A DNA stretch of 54,317 nucleotides, from positions 1 to 54,317 of the forward strand of contig NZ_KB904566.1 of assembly GCF_000380125.1 (NCBI RefSeq), read 5' to 3'. The position numbers and the translations under genes are program-made. Below are positions 18,002 to 49,205 of the stretch, piece by piece (within the stretch, counting starts at the first letter, position 1; every line of letters begins with the position of its first letter). The stretch comes from Streptococcus ovis DSM 16829. Its GTDB lineage: Bacteria > Bacillota > Bacilli > Lactobacillales > Streptococcaceae. A model generated the notes under the pieces. That model was not told the DNA's origin, ran no database searches, and saw only the letters and a list, made by a program, of their open reading frames with translations.

Positions 18002-18033
18002 ATAGTAGAAAAAAAGAGGCACTGCCTCTTTTT
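18002..18033 (-). terminator. comS terminator
   Basis: AAAAAGAGGC (18011-18020) and GCCTCTTTTT (18024-18033) form a perfect 10-bp stem with a 3-base loop. On the minus strand a T-run of at least seven follows. The stem includes two bases of the comS stop codon, so the short comS message ends right after the gene and does not run into ruvB. Confidence 0.88.
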
Positions 18034-18139
18034 AAATTTTCCACCACTCATAACCAAGCGCTGCTGATTCGCTAACAAATTTTGTGACAAATAGCAATGA
18101 TAGTAATAAAAGATAACGAAGTTTTAAAAATTTTTCCAT
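18032..18139 (-). CDS. comS: ComS, precursor of the XIP competence pheromone
   Basis: A 35-codon gene lying directly downstream of comR. It has an ATG at 18137-18139 and an AGGAGA ribosome site. The product starts MEKFLKLRYLLLLSLLF, a basic then hydrophobic export-like region, and ends ESAALGYEWWKI. The C-terminal double tryptophan is the mark of WW-type XIP pheromones, which are cut from ComS outside the cell, imported by the Opp/Ami permease and bound by ComR. Mature XIP is probably the last 7-9 residues (inference). A ComR-box lies upstream, giving positive feedback, and a terminator follows at once. The peptide differs from the GNWGTWVEE pheromone I recall for some S. suis strains, so this looks like a different pherotype. 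Confidence 0.88.
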   Translation of the reverse strand: MEKFLKLRYLLLLSLLFVTKFVSESAALGYEWWKI

Positions 18140-18200
18140 GTTGCTTCTCCTGTAATTATGTTTTATACAGAAATATTTTAAGAAATTTTCATGAACATTT

Positions 18201-18218
18201 ACAGGACATAGATGTCAT
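18201..18218 (-). promoter_or_regulatory. ComR-box of comS
   Basis: ACAGGACATAGATGTCAT contains the inverted repeat GACAT-AG-ATGTC (18205-18216), i.e. GACA-N4-TGTC as before comX. The comR stop codon (18215-18217) lies inside the right half-site. Downstream, toward comS, the -10 is uncertain: TAAAAT or TATAAA in the AT-rich stretch 18150-18185 are candidates. Confidence 0.82.
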
Positions 18219-19120
18219 ATCTCTCGGCTATCTTTTTCCCATTCTTCTTTTAATTGTTTTTGAAGATAAATATCTCCCATCATACCTGCAAACATATCTG
18301 CCTTTTTATAACATTTTTTAGCACGTACAGCATCATCCAGACAAGTCAAACTATATTTCCATTCCAAAAGACTGATGATAGGCATTTTATTAAAATCTTG
18401 AATTTTATTCATAATCTCTTTTGTTTTTTCGAGAACAAATTCTATCTCTTTTTTTGATTTTTCAATTAAATAAATTGAACATAAGTTAACTAATAAAACA
18501 TTCAACATAAATAATTCTTCAACTGTGTATTGATTATAATTTAAAAAAAGTTTATTGAGTAAGCTCAACACAAACTCTTTTTCTACCCCTCCAATCTCAT
18601 TCCATTTTAAACCGGATAAATACAAATGAAGTAAAATCAAGTCATTCATCCCATATTGTTTCTTAATTTTTATTTGTTCCAGATATTCTTCTAAAAGCCC
18701 CTTACTAAAATCAATACTTTTTGTACTAAAAGTATCTAAAACAGCTTGTAGGCAATCAATAGTCAATTTTTCATCTTCTGGTAATTCTTCATAAAAACAT
18801 TCTGAAATTTCATCAAACTGTGCTTCACGTTCAGATACTCGTTTTGGATCCATATAAACCGGAGTTCGAAGAATAGAATATTTTAACTCTTGATAACGTT
18901 TCGGTAAAGCCATTTCTTCACCATCTGTTAGCTGCCCAACTTTTACCTCTAAGACATCTGCGATAAAGAATACCGTACTAATTCTAGGTAAACTTTTACC
19001 CATTTCAATTCGAGCCAATTGCCTAACAGATAGCTCTGACTCATCTCCACAGAATTCCTCACGTGTTATACCTTTCTCCTCGCGTAACTTCCGCACTCTT
19101 GTTCCAAAACGTTGTGGCAT
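18215..19120 (-). CDS. comR: ComR, Rgg-family competence regulator
   Basis: A 301-aa Rgg/RNPP regulator. The N-terminal helix-turn-helix (about 1-68: FGTRVRKLREEKGITREEFC, SVRQLARIEMGKSLPRISTV) is followed by a helical TPR-type domain of the kind that binds XIP. ComR bound to XIP activates comS and comX at palindromic boxes, and both boxes are present in this window. Identity is supported by the adjacent comS. It is AT-rich in its C-terminal half. Its stop codon overlaps the comS operator. Pherotype specificity would reside in the TPR domain. Confidence 0.92.
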   Translation of the reverse strand: MPQRFGTRVRKLREEKGITREEFCGDESELSVRQLARIEMGKSLPRISTVFFIADVLEVKVGQLTDGEEMALPKRYQELKYSILRTPVYMDPKRVSEREAQFDEISECFYEELPEDEKLTIDCLQAVLDTFSTKSIDFSKGLLEEYLEQIKIKKQYGMNDLILLHLYLSGLKWNEIGGVEKEFVLSLLNKLFLNYNQYTVEELFMLNVLLVNLCSIYLIEKSKKEIEFVLEKTKEIMNKIQDFNKMPIISLLEWKYSLTCLDDAVRAKKCYKKADMFAGMMGDIYLQKQLKEEWEKDSREI

Positions 19121-20615: not shown

Positions 20616-21656
20616 TTATACTACTTCAACATCAAGCTCATCAAAGACTTGTTTGCCTTTTCTGCTAACAGCATCTATCAAACTATTTGGAGCCTGAGAA
20701 GAGATATTAGTAGAAATACCCTCTTGTTGACTTTTATCTTCTAGTTCCCTAATTTCTTTTTCAATATGTAATATTTCTTGGTCTAATTCTCCTTTTTTAT
20801 TTTGTCTTATCATCCAGTTCCTCTTCTCCCTTAATATAAGTATGATGCTTGGAAGAACAACTGGAGACATTGTCAGTATCATCTCTAGTGGACTATTTTG
20901 TTTTATTAAATTTGTTTCCAAAAAGCGGCTATTTGAATTGGTAAACTTAGACTGTACAAAAAAGTCACTCCCTAGCAGCTTTATCTTGTCATCTGCCATT
21001 TTTATCCCAATAATTGGACGCTCGAATCTGTTAAATATATAGTTAAACTGACCAGATTTATACTCTACAGATTCTTCTAATGATTTCTGAAATTCTCGGT
21101 TAAAAATTTTAAACACATTCTTTATTTCTTGGATACATTTTTTTCTATTATCGCTATCAATAATGTTATTATCTGTAACAGAATTTACAAAAAAGTCGAT
21201 AAGATTGAATTTTATAATATTTTCTCTTTTTGATATTTCATAAAGCTTTGATAAATCTTCTTTTTTACTTCCAATGAATAATTTATGCTTGTTAACAATA
21301 GAATAATAGCGTCGATATGCTTCGAAAAATTCATGTACTACCAAAATTTGTTTGTTGAAAATCAAAGGTACGGGAGAACCTAGATGATAGTACTTCAAAA
21401 CATCATTAGAATTATTCAAATTTAAAATAGGATCTTTATATTTTGTATATAAATTATTAATATTTATAGATGAATTAATAATAATGACTTCATTCCATTG
21501 AGTTCCTTTGCTAAGATAATCAGCGAGATCATTCAATAATATTGTTTTATAATAAAATTCACTAAAATCATTAGATAATTTTGCGATTTGCCAATTTGTA
21601 TAAAGCGTATGATTATCTTTTTGAGCAGATAATTTCAATTTTAATTTATTTGTCAT
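20616..21656 (-). CDS. Unknown protein with a late membrane segment and coiled coil
   Basis: A protein of about 346 aa that I do not recognise. The start is taken at MTNKLKLKL (21656) behind GGAGAGG; a GTG four codons upstream is the alternative. The first ~250 residues look soluble, alternating helix and strand and rich in Asn, Ile and Lys. NSPLEMILTMSPVVLPSIIL (about 252-275) is a hydrophobic, probably membrane-spanning stretch. It is followed by a charged coiled coil, KGELDQEILHIEKEIRELED. The gene overlaps its upstream partner by 11 bases, so the two are coupled. Base composition is far more AT-rich than purB and purK on either side, which suggests acquisition. A role in defence or stress is possible but unproven. 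Confidence 0.6.
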   Translation of the reverse strand: MTNKLKLKLSAQKDNHTLYTNWQIAKLSNDFSEFYYKTILLNDLADYLSKGTQWNEVIIINSSININNLYTKYKDPILNLNNSNDVLKYYHLGSPVPLIFNKQILVVHEFFEAYRRYYSIVNKHKLFIGSKKEDLSKLYEISKRENIIKFNLIDFFVNSVTDNNIIDSDNRKKCIQEIKNVFKIFNREFQKSLEESVEYKSGQFNYIFNRFERPIIGIKMADDKIKLLGSDFFVQSKFTNSNSRFLETNLIKQNSPLEMILTMSPVVLPSIILILREKRNWMIRQNKKGELDQEILHIEKEIRELEDKSQQEGISTNISSQAPNSLIDAVSRKGKQVFDELDVEVV

Positions 21657-22161
21657 TGACCTCTCCACTTCTTTCCTTAATTTTCTCCTTAAGTTCCTTA
21701 TTCTCTTTCAATAGGCGTAACCTCTTTTCCTTCTCTTGTATAAATTCATTTTCTTTTAAATTTTGCAACTGATAGTTTATATATACAAGATTTAATAATA
21801 AAAGCGAAATTGATACAGCTGAAAAGCCTCCTCTTTTTGAAATTGATTGAAGAAGTTGAAATACAGAATTATCATGGAAGCTAATTATCCAAGCAATAAG
21901 AGCAGTGATTACACCAATTGCTATGGTAACTAGTTTTTTCTTTTTACTTTCCACCTTAAATAGCTCAAACAACGGATCAAGAATGGCAGAAGTTAAAGTT
22001 GCAATTGTTGTAAATAAAAAAATTGGGTATTGAGAGTTTAAATCAAGTTTTTGATTAAAAGCAGTTGATGTACCAAACCAGGATAAAATTATAGACACTA
22101 TAATTATAACTAAATTGAATAAATCATCTTTTGTTATCAACAATTTAAAATACTTCATCAT
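21646..22161 (-). CDS. Unknown four-TM membrane protein with C-terminal coiled coil
   Basis: A protein of about 171 aa starting MMKYFKLLITK at 22161 (or 22158), after GGGGAG. An upstream extension overlapping purK is not credible. Four hydrophobic segments lie near residues 13-31, 46-66, 76-95 and 110-130, followed by a highly charged coiled coil (KENEFIQEKEKRLRLLKENK region) in the last 40 residues. It is unrecognised. It is the first gene of an AT-rich pair between purK and purB, with a TATACT/TATTAT box about 30 bases before the start. The topology, a membrane anchor with a cytoplasmic coil, suggests it holds or senses through its partner. Confidence 0.6.
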   Translation of the reverse strand: MMKYFKLLITKDDLFNLVIIIVSIILSWFGTSTAFNQKLDLNSQYPIFLFTTIATLTSAILDPLFELFKVESKKKKLVTIAIGVITALIAWIISFHDNSVFQLLQSISKRGGFSAVSISLLLLNLVYINYQLQNLKENEFIQEKEKRLRLLKENKELKEKIKERSGEVNDK

Positions 22162-22204
22162 CCTTACTCCCCTTACATTTATATATGCAACTAGTATAAT
22201 ACTT

Positions 22205-23278
22205 TTAAAACTCCTCCACACTTTCCGCATCTTCCCCCAACACCGTCACGTGTCCCATTTTGCGGTTGTGCTTTGCTTCTATTTTACCATAGAGGTGGAG
22301 GTGGGCGCTAGGGTTTTCTGCAACATAGCTTCTAGCTTGTTCTATGTGTTGGCCGAGGATATTGAGCATGACGGCTGGGGCATGGAGTCTGATAGTTGGC
22401 AAAGGTTGGCCGAGTACGCCTAAGATATGGGTATCGAACTGTGAAAAATCACAGGCTTCGATAGAGTAATGCCCTGAGTTGTGGGGGCGTGGGGCGATTT
22501 CATTGATCAGAATCTCATCGCCTGCCACAAACATTTCCACACAGAGGGTGCCAGACAGGTTGAGCTGCTCTGCGATTTTGACTGCCATAGCCTGCGCTTT
22601 CGCGCTCAAGTCGTCTGAAATGCGGGCTGGGACGATGGTTTTTGACAGGATATTGTTACGGTGGATATTTTCCTGAACGGGAAAGACGGTGACATCTCTG
22701 CCATTGCCAGATACGATGACTGAGATTTCCAAGTCAAAATTGACGAACTCCTCCAGGACGCACTCGGTAGCATTAGCCAGCTTGTTGGCTGCTTCAAGGT
22801 CGGCGCGAGAGCGAATAACGACTTGACCGTGGCCATCATAGCCACCTGTGGCAGTTTTGAGGACATAGGTTTTTGAGAAGTCAAGATTTTCCAAATCAAG
22901 GCTAGAGGTCACCACACGATAAGATGATACTGCCACGCCAGCCTTATTAGTTAAGAAATCTTTTTCAAAAATCCGGTTTTGCGAAATACGAAGAAGGTCA
23001 GTCCCCTGCGGAAGTTGACCTTCTTTTATTACAGCGTCCAGACCATCTGCGTCCACATTTTCAAACTCATAGGTCAAGACATCACAACGGTCTGCTAGTT
23101 GTCGCAAAGCCTCCACATCGCTGTAAGGTGCCACAATCACCTCACTCACGCGCGAAGCCGGGCAATCCGCTGCTGGGTCTAGCGTAATGACCTTGTGTCC
23201 CATATAGATAGCAGAAATGGCCATCATCTGACCCAGTTGACCGCCTCCGATAATCCCGATGATTTTAGTTGAGTTCAT
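22205..23278 (-). CDS. purK: N5-carboxyaminoimidazole ribonucleotide synthase
   Basis: A 357-aa ATP-grasp enzyme that carboxylates AIR with ATP and bicarbonate. The N-terminal [20 protein letters not shown], the central ATP-grasp sequence [12 protein letters not shown], and the C-terminal [20 protein letters not shown] are all present. Its start overlaps the purE end by 14 bases, so the two consecutive steps are translationally coupled. Confidence 0.97.
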
Positions 23279-43399: not shown

Positions 43400-43639
43400 T
43401 TATTTAGAAATAGAAAAAATATAGTTCGTAATATCTTCTACAGTTCGAAAACTCTCAATATCAGAGTCAGAAATTTCAATTCCAAATGCATCTTCTAAAG
43501 ACAGTACAAATTCCATTATTTCAACAGAATCTTCTGCAATACTATCATTTAGAGAAGTGGCAGGTGTTACTTCAAAATCACTTCCTTTTGAATCCAGAAT
43601 AATAGCCACGATTTGTTGATAAATTGCCTCCTTATTCAT
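43400..43639 (-). CDS. Acyl carrier protein
   Basis: A 79-aa acidic helical protein starting [20 protein letters not shown]. The phosphopantetheine serine lies in [10 protein letters not shown], so the usual DSLE is DSVE. The start overlaps the plsX end by 8 bases. Streptococci often have this second ACP beside plsX, distinct from the one in the fab cluster. It probably serves phospholipid synthesis with PlsX. Confidence 0.92.
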
Positions 43640-44639
43640 CGCTTTCCTCCACAGGTGAAAATTTCGCGACTGATTTCGCCACAACGTCTGATTCTAACAT
43701 CGTTCGGATTTGTCGAATCGTCGCCAAAATTGTCTTCGCATCACTTGAACCATGCGCTTTTACAACTGGAGCATTGAGTCCGAAGAGAACAGCTCCACCT
43801 GCATCTGAATAATCCAGCGATTTTTTCAACGTACGTAAACTATTTTTCATGAACAAATAGCCAATTTTCGCACGTAATCCGCCGCCCTCAATAGCAGTTT
43901 TCAATTGTCCCATAATACCAAGAGCTGTTCCTTCAATGGATTTAAGTACTGCGTTTCCTGTGAAACCATCTGTTACCACCACATCTGCAACGCCATTCAT
44001 CAGCTCACGCGCCTCGATATTACCAATAAAGTTGATAGCTGGCTCGTCTGATAATAAGGCAAAAACTTCTTTCCGTAGTGGATCTCCCTTTGTTTCTTCT
44101 GTACCATTATTGAGCAAGCCGACACGAGGTTTCGCAATGCTACGCACATTTTCAGCGTAAAATGAACCCAAAACGGCATACTGATGAAGATGTTTAGCTG
44201 TACTTTCAGCATTTGCACCCAAATCTAACATATCAAATCCTTTACCATCAGTTGTCGGCAAAGTAGACAGAAGGCCTGGACGATCAATTCCTTTAATCCG
44301 TCCCACCACAAAAAGACCAGCCGCAAGAAGGGCCCCTGTGTTTCCAGCAGATAAGACTGCATCCGCCTGTCCCTCTTTAACTGCTTTTGCTGCCAAAACC
44401 ATCGAAGCATTTTTCTTCCGACGAATGGCTTTAGCAGGCTCATCATCAGAATTGATTTTCTCATCTGTGTGAATAATGCTCACACGCTCTGTCGCTGTCA
44501 AATACTGACGGATTTTAGCCTCATCTCCATATAATTGAACTTCAATATCTGAAAAAGCTGTAATGGCTTGATTTACTCCCTCTACAATCGCTTGAGGGGC
44601 ATGATCTCCACCCATAGCGTCTACTGCAATACGTTTCAT
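43632..44639 (-). CDS. plsX: Phosphate acyltransferase PlsX
   Basis: A 335-aa enzyme that makes acyl-phosphate from acyl-ACP for phospholipid synthesis. It starts [20 protein letters not shown] and contains [20 protein letters not shown] and [20 protein letters not shown]. It has its own promoter and is coupled to the downstream ACP gene. Confidence 0.97.
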
Positions 44640-44752: not shown

Positions 44753-45265
44753 CTAACTTTTTGCATGTCCAATTAGACTCTTTAGGATTTTCCTTAATTC
44801 TATTTGCTGCTTCAGTGACAACCCTTCCTTACTAGCATCATGTCCTACTACAGTTCCTGTATGAGTTTTAACCTCTCCAGCACTATTAATAGCTACTAGA
44901 AAAGGAACATACAGCTTATCTCCTCCCATGTTTTTTCTAAAAACATCCGTTATCACTGAACGTTGATGTTCTGAGAAATCACTTGATTTTGTATTAACAG
45001 TATATATCTTACTTTGGCTGGCTACCAATTCATCTTCTAAGATGGGTAATAAATCCTGACACCACGGCCAACTGGCAAAACCAAAATAATACAAGCCCTG
45101 ATTCTTATTTTGTACCCTAGTGACAACCTCTACTGATTGTTCCTTTAAGAAGGACTGGTCTTTTTCTGAACTTGGATTAAAAAATAAAAGAAGTAGGACT
45201 CCCAATAAAATAGACACTATGAAAAAACTATTTATAACGAAAGGAATGGTGCTATTTTTATGCAT
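44753..45265 (-). CDS. Membrane-anchored thioredoxin-like protein with a single active-site Cys
   Basis: A 170-aa protein. An N-terminal membrane anchor (about 8-29) is followed by a thioredoxin-like domain: LYYFGFASWPWCQDLLPILE (Cys69), then FRKNMGGDKLYVPFLVAINS with the cis-proline-type VPF. The usual CxxC is reduced to a single Cys, as in the bacteriocin accessory proteins of the PedC/BrcD type and other atypical family members. It is the last gene of the exporter cassette and overlaps the upstream gene by 8 bases. It could form or reshuffle the disulfide of the cassette's two-Cys peptide (inference). Confidence 0.7.
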   Translation of the reverse strand: MHKNSTIPFVINSFFIVSILLGVLLLLFFNPSSEKDQSFLKEQSVEVVTRVQNKNQGLYYFGFASWPWCQDLLPILEDELVASQSKIYTVNTKSSDFSEHQRSVITDVFRKNMGGDKLYVPFLVAINSAGEVKTHTGTVVGHDASKEGLSLKQQIELRKILKSLIGHAKS

Positions 45266-45608
45266 TTTTCCTCCTTAATAAATGACACAATGATAGAAAT
45301 ATCATTTCTCCGTCATTTGTTACTGGTAGCAAATTCAAAATATTTAACCAACAAAACAAACGTATTAAGACCGTCGGTACATTTTCCACTGGTAACAGGA
45401 ATCCTAGAAAAATAAGAACAAGTGGAGCAGAACTAGCAATCAGCAGGTTGTGAAAATCATTCTGTTTATTTTCATAAAAAATTGCTGGAAGAAGAATAGA
45501 TGCTCTCACAATCGGTTTGTAGCCTAACATCATTGCCACTACCAAATGGATTGTTTCATGTAATAAAACAAGTCCTACAATCCCTAGAAAAGATATGAAA
45601 AGAATCAT
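45258..45608 (-). CDS. Mini HExxH membrane metalloprotease (site-2-protease/DUF3267-like)
   Basis: A 116-aa protein with three to four membrane segments. HETIH at residues 17-21 in LLHETIHLVVAMMLG is a zinc motif inside a membrane helix, and NLLPVTNDGEMI (92-103) supplies the third ligand in an NxxP-D-G context. Both are hallmarks of intramembrane metalloproteases. It is far shorter than RseP/Eep and lacks a PDZ domain, resembling the DUF3267 group. Its place in the cassette suggests it trims the exported peptide. It overlaps its neighbours by 4 and 8 bases. Confidence 0.72.
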   Translation of the reverse strand: MILFISFLGIVGLVLLHETIHLVVAMMLGYKPIVRASILLPAIFYENKQNDFHNLLIASSAPLVLIFLGFLLPVENVPTVLIRLFCWLNILNLLPVTNDGEMIFLSLCHLLRRKNA

Positions 45609-45871: not shown

Positions 45872-47167
45872 TTTACAGTCTCCGTTTCTGTTTTGATAAT
45901 ATACATTAAAATGGTGATTAACACCAACATAATAGGGAATAATAATATTGGAACTTTCATCAAAATATAAAGCATAGTAACAGAAAGAAGTAATAGCACA
46001 AAGGATATCGTCTCATTCATGCTACTAGCTGATTTTGGAAAAAGAAAACCAATAATGATACTCACCAAACTGACTGCCATAGTCTGAAGAAAAGGCAATA
46101 AGCCATTTTCAAAATAAACTCCTAATAACAAGGAAGGCAAAGCTAAAAAAATTGTAAATAGTAATAAACTAATAAATTCATTTTTTGTAGTAAATCTTAA
46201 AAGAGGATACATTCTCCTATGTCTTACAGTCGAATCCCCATAATGCAAAAAACTCATCCCTAAAAGTGGCCAAAAATCCATTATATTGTGACCTGCTAGG
46301 GTTATCTCATCAATATAGAGCGAGTATGTGCCTACACAAAAAAGAAATAAAGCAGAATGAAGAAAGAATTTAGTACGTATCATTGCTAAAGCGACCGCTT
46401 CTATCCTTCTTCCCGAAGAAATATTTGATAGAATAGGAAGAAACTTTTTTGGCAAGAATGTAGCATCATACTGTGTTCTATCTACTAAAAGAAGTACAAT
46501 CAGTGTCACACAAGATATTCCCAGTAATAAAAGTGCCAATTCAATCGGATTTTCTATCGTTTTCACCAGATAAAATTCAATATGGAATTTAAATACAAAA
46601 AGATAACTTAAACCAAGCAGGAAATAACATAACGTTATAGCTCCATGGCCTTTTCTTTCTGAAAATCCCATATATTTTATCATCAAATTATACAAAAAAT
46701 TTGAAAATAAATAACTAATCAGAAAGAAAAAGTGGCAAGATAAAAACAAACTAATAGCAATAGGAACTGACTGAAGAACTCCGAGACCTGGAATCAGTAT
46801 CACAAAGAATAATTCAAAAAGAGAGAGAGCTAAGCCCAGTTTGAACAACTTCACGGACCAATATACCTCTGTCTCACTGTATGGTAGTGTTTTAGCTAGA
46901 AATAAGGAACTAGTTTGCAAAGAAACAATTGTATTCATTAGTATGAAGATAAAAATTCCTGCTATCAGTGATAAATTGTTATAACTACCGATTGAAAGAC
47001 TGATATTCGTCTTTAATTCCTCAAAACTATACAGTTCCCCGACACGAGATAATTTTGCAAATTCTACTACATTAAGATAGAAATAGAATAAATAACTTCC
47101 AACACCGAACAGCAGGATCCCCGTCGACTTTTTGGATTTTTTAGAAAGGATTGCTGTAAAACGCCAT
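45868..47167 (-). pseudogene. ABC permease of the cassette, frameshifted near its start
   Basis: The frame is open from 47178 to the stop at 45868 but contains no ATG, GTG or TTG until 46938. Its first 80 codons encode a credible N-terminus (FTAILSKKSKKSTGILLFGV, a membrane segment). An ATG at 47165-47167 with AAGGA at good spacing reads MAFYSNPF and stops. Removing one T from the TTTT run (47158-47161) gives MAFTAILSKK and a 432-aa protein with about ten membrane segments. So the gene looks like an ABC exporter permease disabled or phase-varied by a 1-base insertion. Starting at 46938 (356 aa) is the conventional but less likely reading. A sequencing error is also possible. Confidence 0.7.
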
Positions 47168-47190
47168 GAAAAGATTCCTTAAGATATAAT

Positions 47191-47907
47191 TTAAGCAGAT
47201 ATAAAATATTTACGAATGTTGCGGATTTTCTCACCAATATCTCCTGTCTCCTTCACGTGTTCATTAATGGCATTAACTTCTCCTTCAAATTTAGTAAGAG
47301 TCCCTTTATTCATAATATAAATATTTTCAGGAAATTTTTGCAAAGTATTCAAGTCATGTGATACAACAATAAAACTTCGTGTCCTTTTCAAGTGAAGCAA
47401 TAATTCCTGTACCAATAAAACCGTGTCAAAATCTAAACCACTAAACAATTCATCTGCAAATACATAATCTGTATTTGCTGCAATTGCAGCAATTAACTGA
47501 ATCTTTTTCTTCATACCAAAGGAATAGGATTCTAATAATTGATAACGATGATCTTCCAAATCAAAAATAGAAAACAATAAATCTACCTGTTGCTCACTTG
47601 AATTTGGATAATGCCTCAAGGTTAACTTTAAATATTCATCTGCAGTAAGATAATCAGGCAGATAAAAATCAGATGGGATATAAAAGATTGATTTTTTGTA
47701 ATCCTTCGTACCTACAACCTCTCCATGGCACATTATAGTGCCACTATCTGCTTTTAATAAATTCATCATTGTATTCATGAAAGTTGTTTTTCCGCAACCA
47801 TTCATTCCTACAATAACATAAATTTCCTTAGGCTTAAATTGTATGGAAAGATTAGCTAAAACTGTCTTTTTTTGAAAGGATTTAGATAAATTGGTAACAG
47901 TAATCAT
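47191..47907 (-). CDS. ABC transporter ATP-binding protein
   Basis: A 238-aa ATPase. Walker A is GMNGCGKTT (35-43 region), the signature is the unusual SYSFGMKKK in place of LSGGQ, Walker B is YVFADELFSGLD and the H-loop is VVSHD. SFGMKKK signatures are common in peptide and bacteriocin self-protection or export ATPases of Firmicutes. It begins behind AGGAGG after an attenuator hairpin. The permease frame follows 23 bases after its stop. Confidence 0.92.
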   Translation of the reverse strand: MITVTNLSKSFQKKTVLANLSIQFKPKEIYVIVGMNGCGKTTFMNTMMNLLKADSGTIMCHGEVVGTKDYKKSIFYIPSDFYLPDYLTADEYLKLTLRHYPNSSEQQVDLLFSIFDLEDHRYQLLESYSFGMKKKIQLIAAIAANTDYVFADELFSGLDFDTVLLVQELLLHLKRTRSFIVVSHDLNTLQKFPENIYIMNKGTLTKFEGEVNAINEHVKETGDIGEKIRNIRKYFISA

Positions 47908-47920
47908 AAATTTTCCTCCT

Positions 47921-47951
47921 AAAAAGAGAGGAGGTTGGAAAAAGCACCTCC
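47921..47951 (-). terminator. Attenuator between the peptide gene and the ABC ATPase gene
   Basis: GGAGGT (minus strand, 47951-47946) pairs with ACCTCC (47935-47930) around a 10-base loop, extended by GAGA/TCTC, and is followed by CTCTTTTT. Incomplete termination here would give much peptide message and less transporter message, the usual pattern in bacteriocin operons. Confidence 0.65.
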
Positions 47952-48096
47952 ATCTCCTAACTCGTATGGTTTTAAAGGGTTGATGTAATCATTTAGTAGG
48001 GAGTTAGTCTAAGTGAGTATTTATTTTACAATGAAGACTTGCTTAGAAATCAATTTCCTCCAAATACCAACTTCTACCTCACCCTTATTCTTTTAA

Positions 48097-48318
48097 TTAG
48101 TTACATGCAATCCCCATTTGTCCAGATTTTGGCCAATGGAATTTGACATTAAAAGCAAAACTTCTACCTCGACTAGTACAATACCAAGCATACAAACCAA
48201 TTCCCGCCAAGACAACTAAGCCAAAAACAAACCACATCCAACGATTTTCAATGACATGTTGATATTTTCTCTCCAAATCCAATACATAACCTTGAAACAT
48301 TTCTGATAGTGTTGTCAT
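48097..48318 (-). CDS. Candidate exported peptide precursor (73 aa, two Cys)
   Basis: The product starts MTTLSEMFQGYVLDLERKYQ behind AGGAGG. A charged N-terminal 26 residues is followed by one membrane segment (about 27-46). A 27-residue C-terminal part begins at Cys47 (CTSRGRSFAF) and ends FHWPKSGQMGIACN, with Cys72. There is no double-glycine leader. I do not recognise the family. It heads a cassette of ABC ATPase, permease, HExxH protease and thioredoxin-like protein, so the C-terminal part may be cut out, disulfide-bonded and exported as a bacteriocin or signal. A cin-box-like sequence upstream suggests competence control. An ordinary small membrane protein is the alternative. Confidence 0.65.
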   Translation of the reverse strand: MTTLSEMFQGYVLDLERKYQHVIENRWMWFVFGLVVLAGIGLYAWYCTSRGRSFAFNVKFHWPKSGQMGIACN

Positions 48319-48359
48319 AAGATTCCTCCTAAAATTATCATTAAGATTTCTCTCTCATT

Positions 48360-48390
48360 TTATCTATTCGAAAAAAATTCTAAAATTATC
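48360..48390 (-). promoter_or_regulatory. cin-box-like SigX promoter of the peptide cassette
   Basis: On the minus strand TTCGAATA (48372-48365) matches TNCGAATA and is preceded by AATTTTT, the T-rich element typical of late competence promoters. It stands 46 bases before the peptide ATG, and no better sigma-A promoter was seen between it and the recO terminator. The match is by eye only. Confidence 0.5.
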
Positions 48391-48392
48391 AA

Positions 48393-48439
48393 AAAAAGAT
48401 TGGAAAGAATATCTAAAATAGATTTTTCCCAATCTTTTT
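48393..48439. terminator. recO terminator, bidirectional
   Basis: AAAAAGATTGG (48393-48403) and CCAATCTTTTT (48429-48439) form a perfect 11-bp stem around a 25-base loop that itself contains ATCT/AGAT. T-runs lie on both strands. It insulates the peptide cassette from recO. Confidence 0.85.
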
Positions 48440-48446
48440 ATAACCA

Positions 48447-49205
48447 TTATTTTTTCATAATCTGACCCCAATCTGTCAGATTATCAATAAATTTCTTACT
48501 CTTCAAGTGAATGCCTACATATTCTTCATACAACTGGTCGATAAACAGACGTAACTTCCGCTTCATTTCAGGTTTAATTGAAATAGTTTCTAATTCTGCA
48601 AAGGAAATAGCCTGAAATTGATCCAACAAATAGAGGACATTAGGATCCACATGGCTTCGCCTTTCATCCTCCTGATAATGCTGAGGGCATAAAACTCCCG
48701 AATACTTGTAAGAATAATCAAATGGCAAACCCACACGATGGCAAAATACACACTCATGAAAATTCAATGATACACCGAATCGCCCCAACAATTGAATTTC
48801 AAAAATGTTGGTGAGAATTTCTGCATCCATTCCCTCTTCCATCAAATCCAACGTTTTCTCAACAAAAGAAAACAACGCTGCATCGATAATTCCATCCTGC
48901 ATGCAGGCATCTGCCAATGAAACCACGTAAGAAGCATAAGCAAGTGTAAAAATATCAGCCTGTATCCGTTTAAACATCTTCATCTGTGACACATCATCTA
49001 TATAACCAAGCCCTTCTTCATTCAACTTAACAATATAATCTGCCACAACCAACTGTTGAATCCCAGCGGTCAATTTCGAGTGCGAAGCATGTTTCACGAA
49101 AAACATTCGTTTCCCTGCCTGCTCTGTAAATATTTTTACCAACTTATCATCTTCTCGATAATTTCGATTGTATAAAACCAGGCCCCTTGTCTCTACTCTT
49201 TGCAT
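48447..49205 (-). CDS. recO: DNA repair protein RecO
   Basis: A 252-aa RecO, which loads RecA onto SSB-coated DNA with RecR. It has an N-terminal OB fold ([20 protein letters not shown]) and a helical domain with a CVFC and CPQH cysteine cluster (about 151-178). The start lies 13 bases inside the aminotransferase gene, so translation is coupled. RecO is also needed for some steps of transformation in naturally competent bacteria. Confidence 0.96.

Follow-up and report, generated by a model that had tools for sequence, protein, structure and literature searches.

A compact cassette of six co-oriented genes fills the interval between recO and plsX of Streptococcus ovis DSM 16829 in the stretch of DNA analysed here (hereafter the window: contig NZ_KB904566.1, positions 1 to 54,317, 54,317 nucleotides). 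It is headed by the gene of a 73-amino-acid (aa) precursor peptide with two cysteines and closed by a thioredoxin-like gene (Table 1). We propose, with a probability of about 0.6, that the cassette makes a small cationic peptide, closed by a disulfide, from a membrane precursor and exports it, using a dedicated M50-like protease and a dedicated ATP-binding cassette (ABC) exporter; the product would most likely be an antimicrobial of the bacteriocin or fratricide type. The evidence consists of the conservation of the peptide, a constant gene order, a set of invariant residues, a promoter match and the scattered sites at which the cassette is found.

The precursor peptide and its distribution

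An earlier, sequence-only reading of the window had described a 73-aa precursor with a single hydrophobic segment and a 27-residue tail carrying C47 and C72, and each part of this description holds. In the window copy, the hydrophobic segment spans approximately residues 27–46 and the tail is cationic. Judged by its conservation, the open reading frame (ORF) is a real gene, beyond what chance would give, since homologues adjoin the other cassette genes in 28 of the 30 loci found; the 28 include the interrupted copy of G284. Six residues (L15, Y43, Y46, C47, F54 and C72) are invariant in all 26 aligned peptides (21 distinct), and a peptide added later (G1031) agrees with this pattern. Y43 to C47 lie where the hydrophobic segment ends, and the second cysteine stands no more than three residues from the C-terminus. 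The tail past the segment has 25–29 residues and a net charge of +1 to +5 in 21/21 distinct peptides, and the N-terminal flank averages +0.6. The invariant tail cysteines and a thioredoxin-like gene co-inherited in 20 of the 30 loci argue for a product that would lie outside the membrane. A low-confidence AlphaFold model gives a helix at residues 3–49 and strands at 54–58 and 68–72, and it is too uncertain to lend support to a disulfide hairpin (mean predicted local distance difference test 67, about 47–57 in the tail; predicted template modelling score 0.36).

Mean pairwise identity in the peptide family is 0.50 for the tail versus 0.49 for the hydrophobic segment, and the equal conservation of the segment suits a different reading, in which a small transmembrane (TM) protein acts uncleaved as a toxin or stress protein and the ABC, 2-TM and M50-like set removes or degrades it, serving immunity and not export. 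The epipeptide ABC transporter YydIJ has been postulated to serve autoimmunity (PMC7026026), and one locus (G243) keeps the ABC gene with a longer permease ORF of 577 aa, while no peptide, 2-TM or M50-like gene was found there. The invariant tail cysteines and the thioredoxin-like gene speak against an uncleaved product, and we consider this reading improbable.

The peptide search covered 295 genomes of the family and found the peptide in 15, in each of which the neighbouring genes and their order are the same, apart from small gaps or losses. A peptide profile applied to 395 genomes of the order gave four strong hits among 37 listed matches; two of the four were already known, and two were new and in other families. 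The other 33 were rejected as chance matches (E-values 2e-4 to 9.4e-3), mostly partial and inside long ORFs, some with stops or short frames. Searches with the permease had hits in 16 genomes of the genus (284 searched), in eight further genomes of the class (398 searched) and in one further genome of the phylum (398 searched); as seven of the eight from the class belong to a single genus, they are not independent. This brings the total to 30 cassette loci, in 28 of which the peptide gene immediately precedes the ABC gene; the remaining two are G239, cut by a contig end, and G243, which lacks the peptide. Homologues of the peptide standing apart from the transporter, which would have spoken against a functional unit, were looked for and none appeared: the cassette is present in 17/17 genomes with a strong peptide match. 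The expectation that homologous peptides would be found beside HExxH and ABC genes, and that peptide, exporter and protease travel as a unit, is thus borne out across the cassette loci. The named carriers include S. bovimastitidis and S. didelphis. When plasmid records were searched with the G903 permease (tblastn, E limit 1e-3), none was found to encode it.

The cassette is sporadic, sits at different sites and is mobile. It fills the recO–plsX interval in the window and in G284; elsewhere, among the loci with neighbours listed, it is flanked by different genes, with some flanks common within one group. Among seven relatives, recO and plsX overlap in four (G253, G136, G248, G135), lie about 80 bp apart in G089 and are separated by a gap of about 0.7 kb in G652. 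In the seventh, G199, recO is followed by other genes, which include a GHKL histidine kinase and a LytTR response regulator (L246:1354-3461), and the site may hence be a hotspot for signalling or peptide systems. In G284, a transposase-like remnant (IS200 type by eye; L018:4560-4995) lies between recO and the cin-box-like site. A tree of 23 ABC rows places the window with G284, G169, G129, G235 and G268 in one clade (clade A; support 100/98).

Transport, release and disulfide genes

The downstream genes that had been read from the sequence (ABC ATPase, permease, 2-TM protein, HExxH protein and thioredoxin-like protein, all co-oriented) are present as described, whereas only the last four fit the description as mostly overlapping; a gap of 189 nt, with a terminator-like hairpin in it, separates the peptide gene from the ABC gene. 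The signature SFGMKKK occurs in 11 of 12 aligned ABC proteins, including that of the window, and SYGMKKK in the remaining one. Among the best 25 of 34 Pfam matches of the ABC protein there is no peptidase C39 domain, only ABC_tran and other P-loop matches. Neither the window permease nor its intact relatives belong to a Pfam or NCBIfam family, two sub-threshold NCBIfam matches being all that was obtained; the permease has no Pfam match at E 1 or better, and so none to an EcsB family. The predicted structure of the intact G268 permease weakly resembles ABC exporter permeases; the permease model used the G268 copy with 15 relatives as rows, those of the window and G284 being the open parts of broken copies. 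The 2-TM protein, which matches nothing over any Pfam or NCBIfam cut-off, is a candidate exporter subunit or immunity protein.

Both hallmarks of site-2 (M50) proteases, HExxH and N..P..DG, occur in the HETIH protein of the window, with Pfam scores below cut-off. HExxH is kept in 13 of 15 rows of one alignment; in the two exceptions it lies upstream of the ORF start used (G235) or in another frame (G169). Fourteen further copies have HExxH in 13 cases (not in G238) and N..P..DG in all 14. When solved structures were searched by sequence, the M50-like protein weakly matched a zinc metalloprotease (E 0.02), and the permease had a single match at chance level. Twenty of the 30 loci hold a thioredoxin-like gene, which is divergent and on the opposite strand in G323 and fused to the M50-like part in G284, where a single ORF of 300 aa (L018:7979-8881) suggests that the two functions are linked. 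Scores of the thioredoxin-like proteins against TIGR01295 (PedC/BrcD) are 24.3, 32.4 and 28.9 bits versus a cut-off of 120, which leaves them outside that family.

The absence of a radical S-adenosylmethionine (SAM) enzyme and of a double-Gly leader, both claimed from the sequence, is upheld. A scan of the 30 loci (387,160 bases) for the radical-SAM-type motif CX3CX2C in ORFs of at least 200 aa returned one protein only, a flank gene in L166 resembling a ribonucleotide reductase activase (named by eye), and the 73-aa sequence holds no GG. The peptide has no Pfam or NCBIfam match over cut-off. Matches to PHROGs were weak (best E 0.005), and PADLOC had none at E 0.1.

Table 1. Features of the cassette and its borders in the window
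Feature	Position	Strand	Basis
recO, one cassette border	48447-49205	-	PF02565/PF11967
SigX (cin-box) promoter candidate, T-run + TTCGAATA	48365-48377	-	likeness to coiA and dprA promoters of the same genome
Two-Cys precursor peptide, 73 aa	48097-48318	-	ORF translation; homologues in relatives
Terminator- or attenuator-like hairpin with U-run, peptide–ABC gap	47921-47957	-	11-pair stem, -15.2 kcal/mol
ABC ATPase, 238 aa, signature SFGMKKK	47191-47907	-	PF00005 E 1.7e-20
Exporter permease, open part, 356 aa	45868-46938	-	profile match 45877-47151; 5' part in another frame
Small 2-TM protein, 88 aa	45605-45871	-	conserved in cassette; over no cut-off
M50/DUF3267-like membrane metalloprotease, HETIH + N..NLLPVTNDG	45258-45608	-	PF02163 E 6.6e-5, PF11667 E 9.4e-5, both below cut-off
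Membrane-anchored thioredoxin-like protein, active site SWPWC	44753-45265	-	remote PedC/BrcD match E 2.3e-5, well below cut-off
plsX, other cassette border	43632-44639	-	PF02504

Promoter and regulators

A cin-box-like site with a T-rich tract had been noted above the peptide gene, and we confirm it: TTCGAATA stands at 48365-48372 on the minus strand after a T-run, and TTTT-TTCGAATA matches the coiA promoter of the same genome. The late-competence promoters used for comparison read ATTTTTTCGAATA for coiA, TTTTCGAATT for dprA and TTACGAATA for radC; coiA and dprA were found by family, and radC was named by eye among TACGAATA sites. TTCGAATA also precedes dprA and cclA in S. dysgalactiae (PMC11288034), and it stands before a Cib-like bacteriocin operon of S. 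mitis whose SigX dependence was checked by reverse transcription PCR (PMC6001120). From the consensus reported for S. suis, YTACGAAYW (PMC5167698), the window site differs at one core base.

The motif by itself was rejected as evidence. TWCGAATA occurs 133 times in the genome versus 222 times for a reversed-pattern control, YTACGAAYW 155 versus 191 times, and the longer TTTTNTWCGAAYA, a pattern chosen after the site had been seen, three versus six times. As these counts fall below their controls, rarity gives no support, and the support lies in context and conservation. A cin-box with a T-rich tract stands at a plausible promoter distance, as is expected of SigX-regulon genes, and T3 plus T[AT]CGAA occurs within 200 nt upstream in five of the six clade-A loci (window included), compared with 0.5–2.3% of dinucleotide shuffles per locus. 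Upstream regions were taken from 23 of the 28 peptide loci (G853, G924, G759, G995 and G828 were excluded as near-duplicates). Among the 17 of these regions that lie outside clade A, T[AT]CGAAT[AG] is found in none and the loose T-tract pattern in four, all through one palindrome in related loci. Because the loci are related and the pattern was defined with the window site already in view, no combined probability is given. The palindrome, TTTTTCGAAAAA in G238, G067, G251 and G624, was not accepted as a cin-box, since its T[AG] end is missing and the loci have an Rgg-type regulator. It is conserved about 96–101 nt before the peptide start (L025, L026, L027, L205) and is a candidate regulator site in its own right.

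The promoter comparison thus supports, and does not prove, competence (SigX) control of the window cassette. The claim that the peptide is induced with competence fits the promoter likeness and its conservation in clade A, but does not extend to the whole family, given the 17 other upstream regions and seven loci with Rgg or ComR-type regulators. The window itself carries comR (18215-19120; ComR_TPR E 2.6e-63), adjoined by a comS-like ORF of 35 aa (18032-18139) with a WW motif near its end, seen by eye. With both genes (18032-19120) about 26–30 kb from the cassette, the SigX-inducing peptide (XIP) pherotype of the strain is readable.

A co-oriented Rgg or ComR-type regulator stands about 380–590 nt upstream of the peptide in seven of the 29 loci other than the window. 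That of G145 is of ComR type (ComR_TPR E 6.4e-58, over the Pfam cut-off; below the NCBIfam Rgg cut-off), those of G624, G067, G038 and G031 are over the NCBIfam Rgg cut-off, and those of G251 and G238 were assigned from their close likeness to that of G624 (E 1e-145 and 1e-144). The NCBIfam scan took in six of eight regulator proteins (G624, G038, G067, G031, G145 and G390); the last, about 340 nt upstream of the peptide, is an unclassified helix-turn-helix (HTH) protein with sub-threshold HTH matches and no match to the Rgg model. In S. salivarius, many bacteriocins appear to be under the control of ComR (PMC12445099; see also PMC6703854). A search of 6–18 kb stretches for proteins like ComR and two locus regulators found no Rgg or ComR-type regulator near 21 of the 29 loci.

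Such regulators would suit a cassette that is a self-contained communication module, its released tail a pheromone exported and cut as short hydrophobic peptides (SHPs) are by PptAB and Eep. Eep processes SHP pheromones. The tail is fairly conserved, a regulator adjoins the seven loci, and export of Rgg pheromones by the ABC transporter PptAB has been reported (PMC7564271, PMC5167397). Against a signalling role stand the 21 loci with no such regulator found nearby and the nature of the product, a two-cysteine peptide of 25–29 residues. RRNPP pheromones, which it does not resemble, are short and linear. The co-inherited thioredoxin and an operon tempered by a hairpin also fit a product made in quantity, and we regard signalling as an unlikely function.

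The hairpin between the peptide and ABC genes was not listed by a terminator scan that allowed loops of 3–8, the 196 nt around it show no unusual folding (z -0.83), and Rfam has no match at 47000-48500. Most of the peptide–ABC gaps looked at in the cassette loci have such a hairpin. The minimum free energy of the peptide–ABC gap is -11 kcal/mol or lower in nine of 13 loci and weaker in G268, G169, G067 and G145, values that come from gaps of different lengths and carry no shuffle control.

Damage in the window copy

The permease measures about 450–475 aa in most or intact relatives, versus a truncated ORF of 356 aa in the window, where the N-terminal piece lies in another frame and the profile match covers positions 30–452 of 454. 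The thioredoxin-like protein had been described as a single-Cys type; this trait belongs to the window copy alone, as CxxC is present in 14/14 relatives compared. Set against these relatives, the lost cysteine and the short permease look like lesions of the window copy, and the frame break is possibly an error of the draft assembly.

These lesions open the question of whether the window cassette is a relic that arrived at recO–plsX and is now decaying, with the peptide merely still open, an account that concerns the window copy and is compatible with the proposed function of the family. G284, at the same chromosomal site, has stops of its own in peptide and permease, and between the window and G284 the nonsynonymous divergence (dN) is 0.43–0.54 in the permease, M50-like and thioredoxin-like genes and 0.19–0.20 in recO and plsX (synonymous divergence is saturated). 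The frames of the peptide, ABC, 2-TM and M50-like genes and the promoter are intact in the window, the permease break may be an assembly artefact, and decay of this copy would not cover the family; we give the relic account an even chance. The peptide gene of G284 (L018:5270-5482) has two in-frame TGA codons, both at positions where relatives have Trp. G238 and G169 likewise carry broken genes, so that decay is common in the cassette family and the window copy may be off.

Proposed working of the cassette

From the conserved features, we infer a series of steps that includes membrane insertion, a defined topology, cleavage, disulfide formation, secretion and killing. ComRS would raise SigX and the promoter at 48365-48377 would fire; in other species an Rgg or ComR-type regulator may take the place of SigX. 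The peptide gene would be the most transcribed, with the hairpin behind it tempering read-through into the transport genes. The precursor would enter the membrane via its single hydrophobic segment, and the ABC ATPase and permease, possibly with the 2-TM protein, would handle or export its tail. The thioredoxin-like enzyme, assumed to face outward, would join Cys47 to Cys72, and the M50-like protease would cut in or near the hydrophobic segment and free a tail of about 25–29 residues.

Several points weigh against this proposal. Bacteriocin cores often diversify, and the tail, at an identity of 0.50, is fairly conserved, unlike many of them. The cassette offers only a candidate for an immunity gene, as far as its sequences suggest. 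A cationic tail beside a near-neutral N-terminal flank contravenes the positive-inside rule, which makes the topology uncertain. The thioredoxin-like gene was not found in ten of the 30 loci (the eight class-level loci, G169 and G243), so either it is dispensable or a host enzyme takes its place. In the window strain, the broken permease frame and the missing thioredoxin cysteine suggest that the peptide product is not made, or is poorly made. As to competence control, the clade-A locus of G235 has no cin-box-like site, and the published S. suis CIN regulon names SSU0038-45 and not this cassette, which that strain may lack (PMC5167698).

Relation to known peptide systems

The epipeptide locus of Bacillus subtilis (yydFGHIJ or epeXEPAB) comprises a small precursor, an M50 protease thought to release the product and an ABC transporter (PMC7026026, PMC10885120). 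The cassette likewise has an M50-type protease (with Pfam scores below cut-off) and an ABC exporter beside its precursor. Epipeptides need a radical SAM epimerase, and none was found in the cassette loci; moreover, unlike the epipeptide locus, the cassette has a TM-anchored precursor, two invariant cysteines and often a thioredoxin-like gene. The skf operon of B. subtilis combines a peptide, an ABC exporter, a membrane protease and a thioredoxin-like protein, as the cassette does. The cassette differs in its M50-like protease and in that no radical SAM enzyme was found.

In streptococci, a functional likeness is offered by PptAB–Eep (EcsAB–RasP), in which an ABC exporter (for PptAB: PMC7564271, PMC5167397) and an M50 protease act on small peptides. 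The cassette is a dedicated set, compared with that general system for short linear pheromones. PedC/BrcD of the pediocin type, a thioredoxin-like protein tied to a disulfide bacteriocin, resembles the cassette protein through a remote profile match only (24–32 versus 120 bits), and neither a double-Gly leader nor a C39 exporter, the marks of class II bacteriocins, is seen in the cassette (for C39, among the best 25 of 34 Pfam matches). SSU0038-45 of S. suis, a putative bacteriocin operon under CIN-box control, also contains ABC and protease genes (PMC5167698); by its description it is set apart by a CAAX protease, two ABC proteins and peptides of 42 and 57 aa, one with a double-Gly leader. 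The purK–purB interval of the window, where published S. suis locus numbers suggest SSU0038-45, holds two genes of unknown function (20616-22230; pur names by eye).

The sequence-only reading had suggested that such a locus would be of a new kind. In part this is too broad, since M50 release beside an ABC transporter has already been proposed for epipeptides (PMC7026026, PMC10885120). The open-access literature searched, Pfam and NCBIfam seem to contain no description of the precursor family or of the disulfide version. No title or abstract start describing the cassette turned up in that literature, six strings of the peptide sequence were not found in the open-access papers searched, and a term search of the accessible text of PMC4858297 and PMC9765709 returned nothing on this locus. 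With some reservation, at somewhat below even odds, we suggest that the cassette represents an undescribed class of ribosomal peptides of Gram-positives, with a single-pass precursor, one disulfide, set by a dedicated thioredoxin, as the only modification, release by a dedicated miniature M50-like protease together with an ABC exporter, no radical SAM enzyme or double-Gly leader, and control rewired between SigX and Rgg or ComR.

Implications

What emerges is a compact peptide-making cassette that is present in at least two classes of one phylum and unmodelled by the curated libraries used. A SigX-type promoter in some streptococci and Rgg or ComR-type regulators beside the cassette in others make a natural test of the coupling between competence and peptide weapons. 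With intact-looking copies, such as that of S. bovimastitidis, one could ask cleanly whether a membrane precursor needs no more than an M50-like protease and a thioredoxin to become a disulfide peptide.
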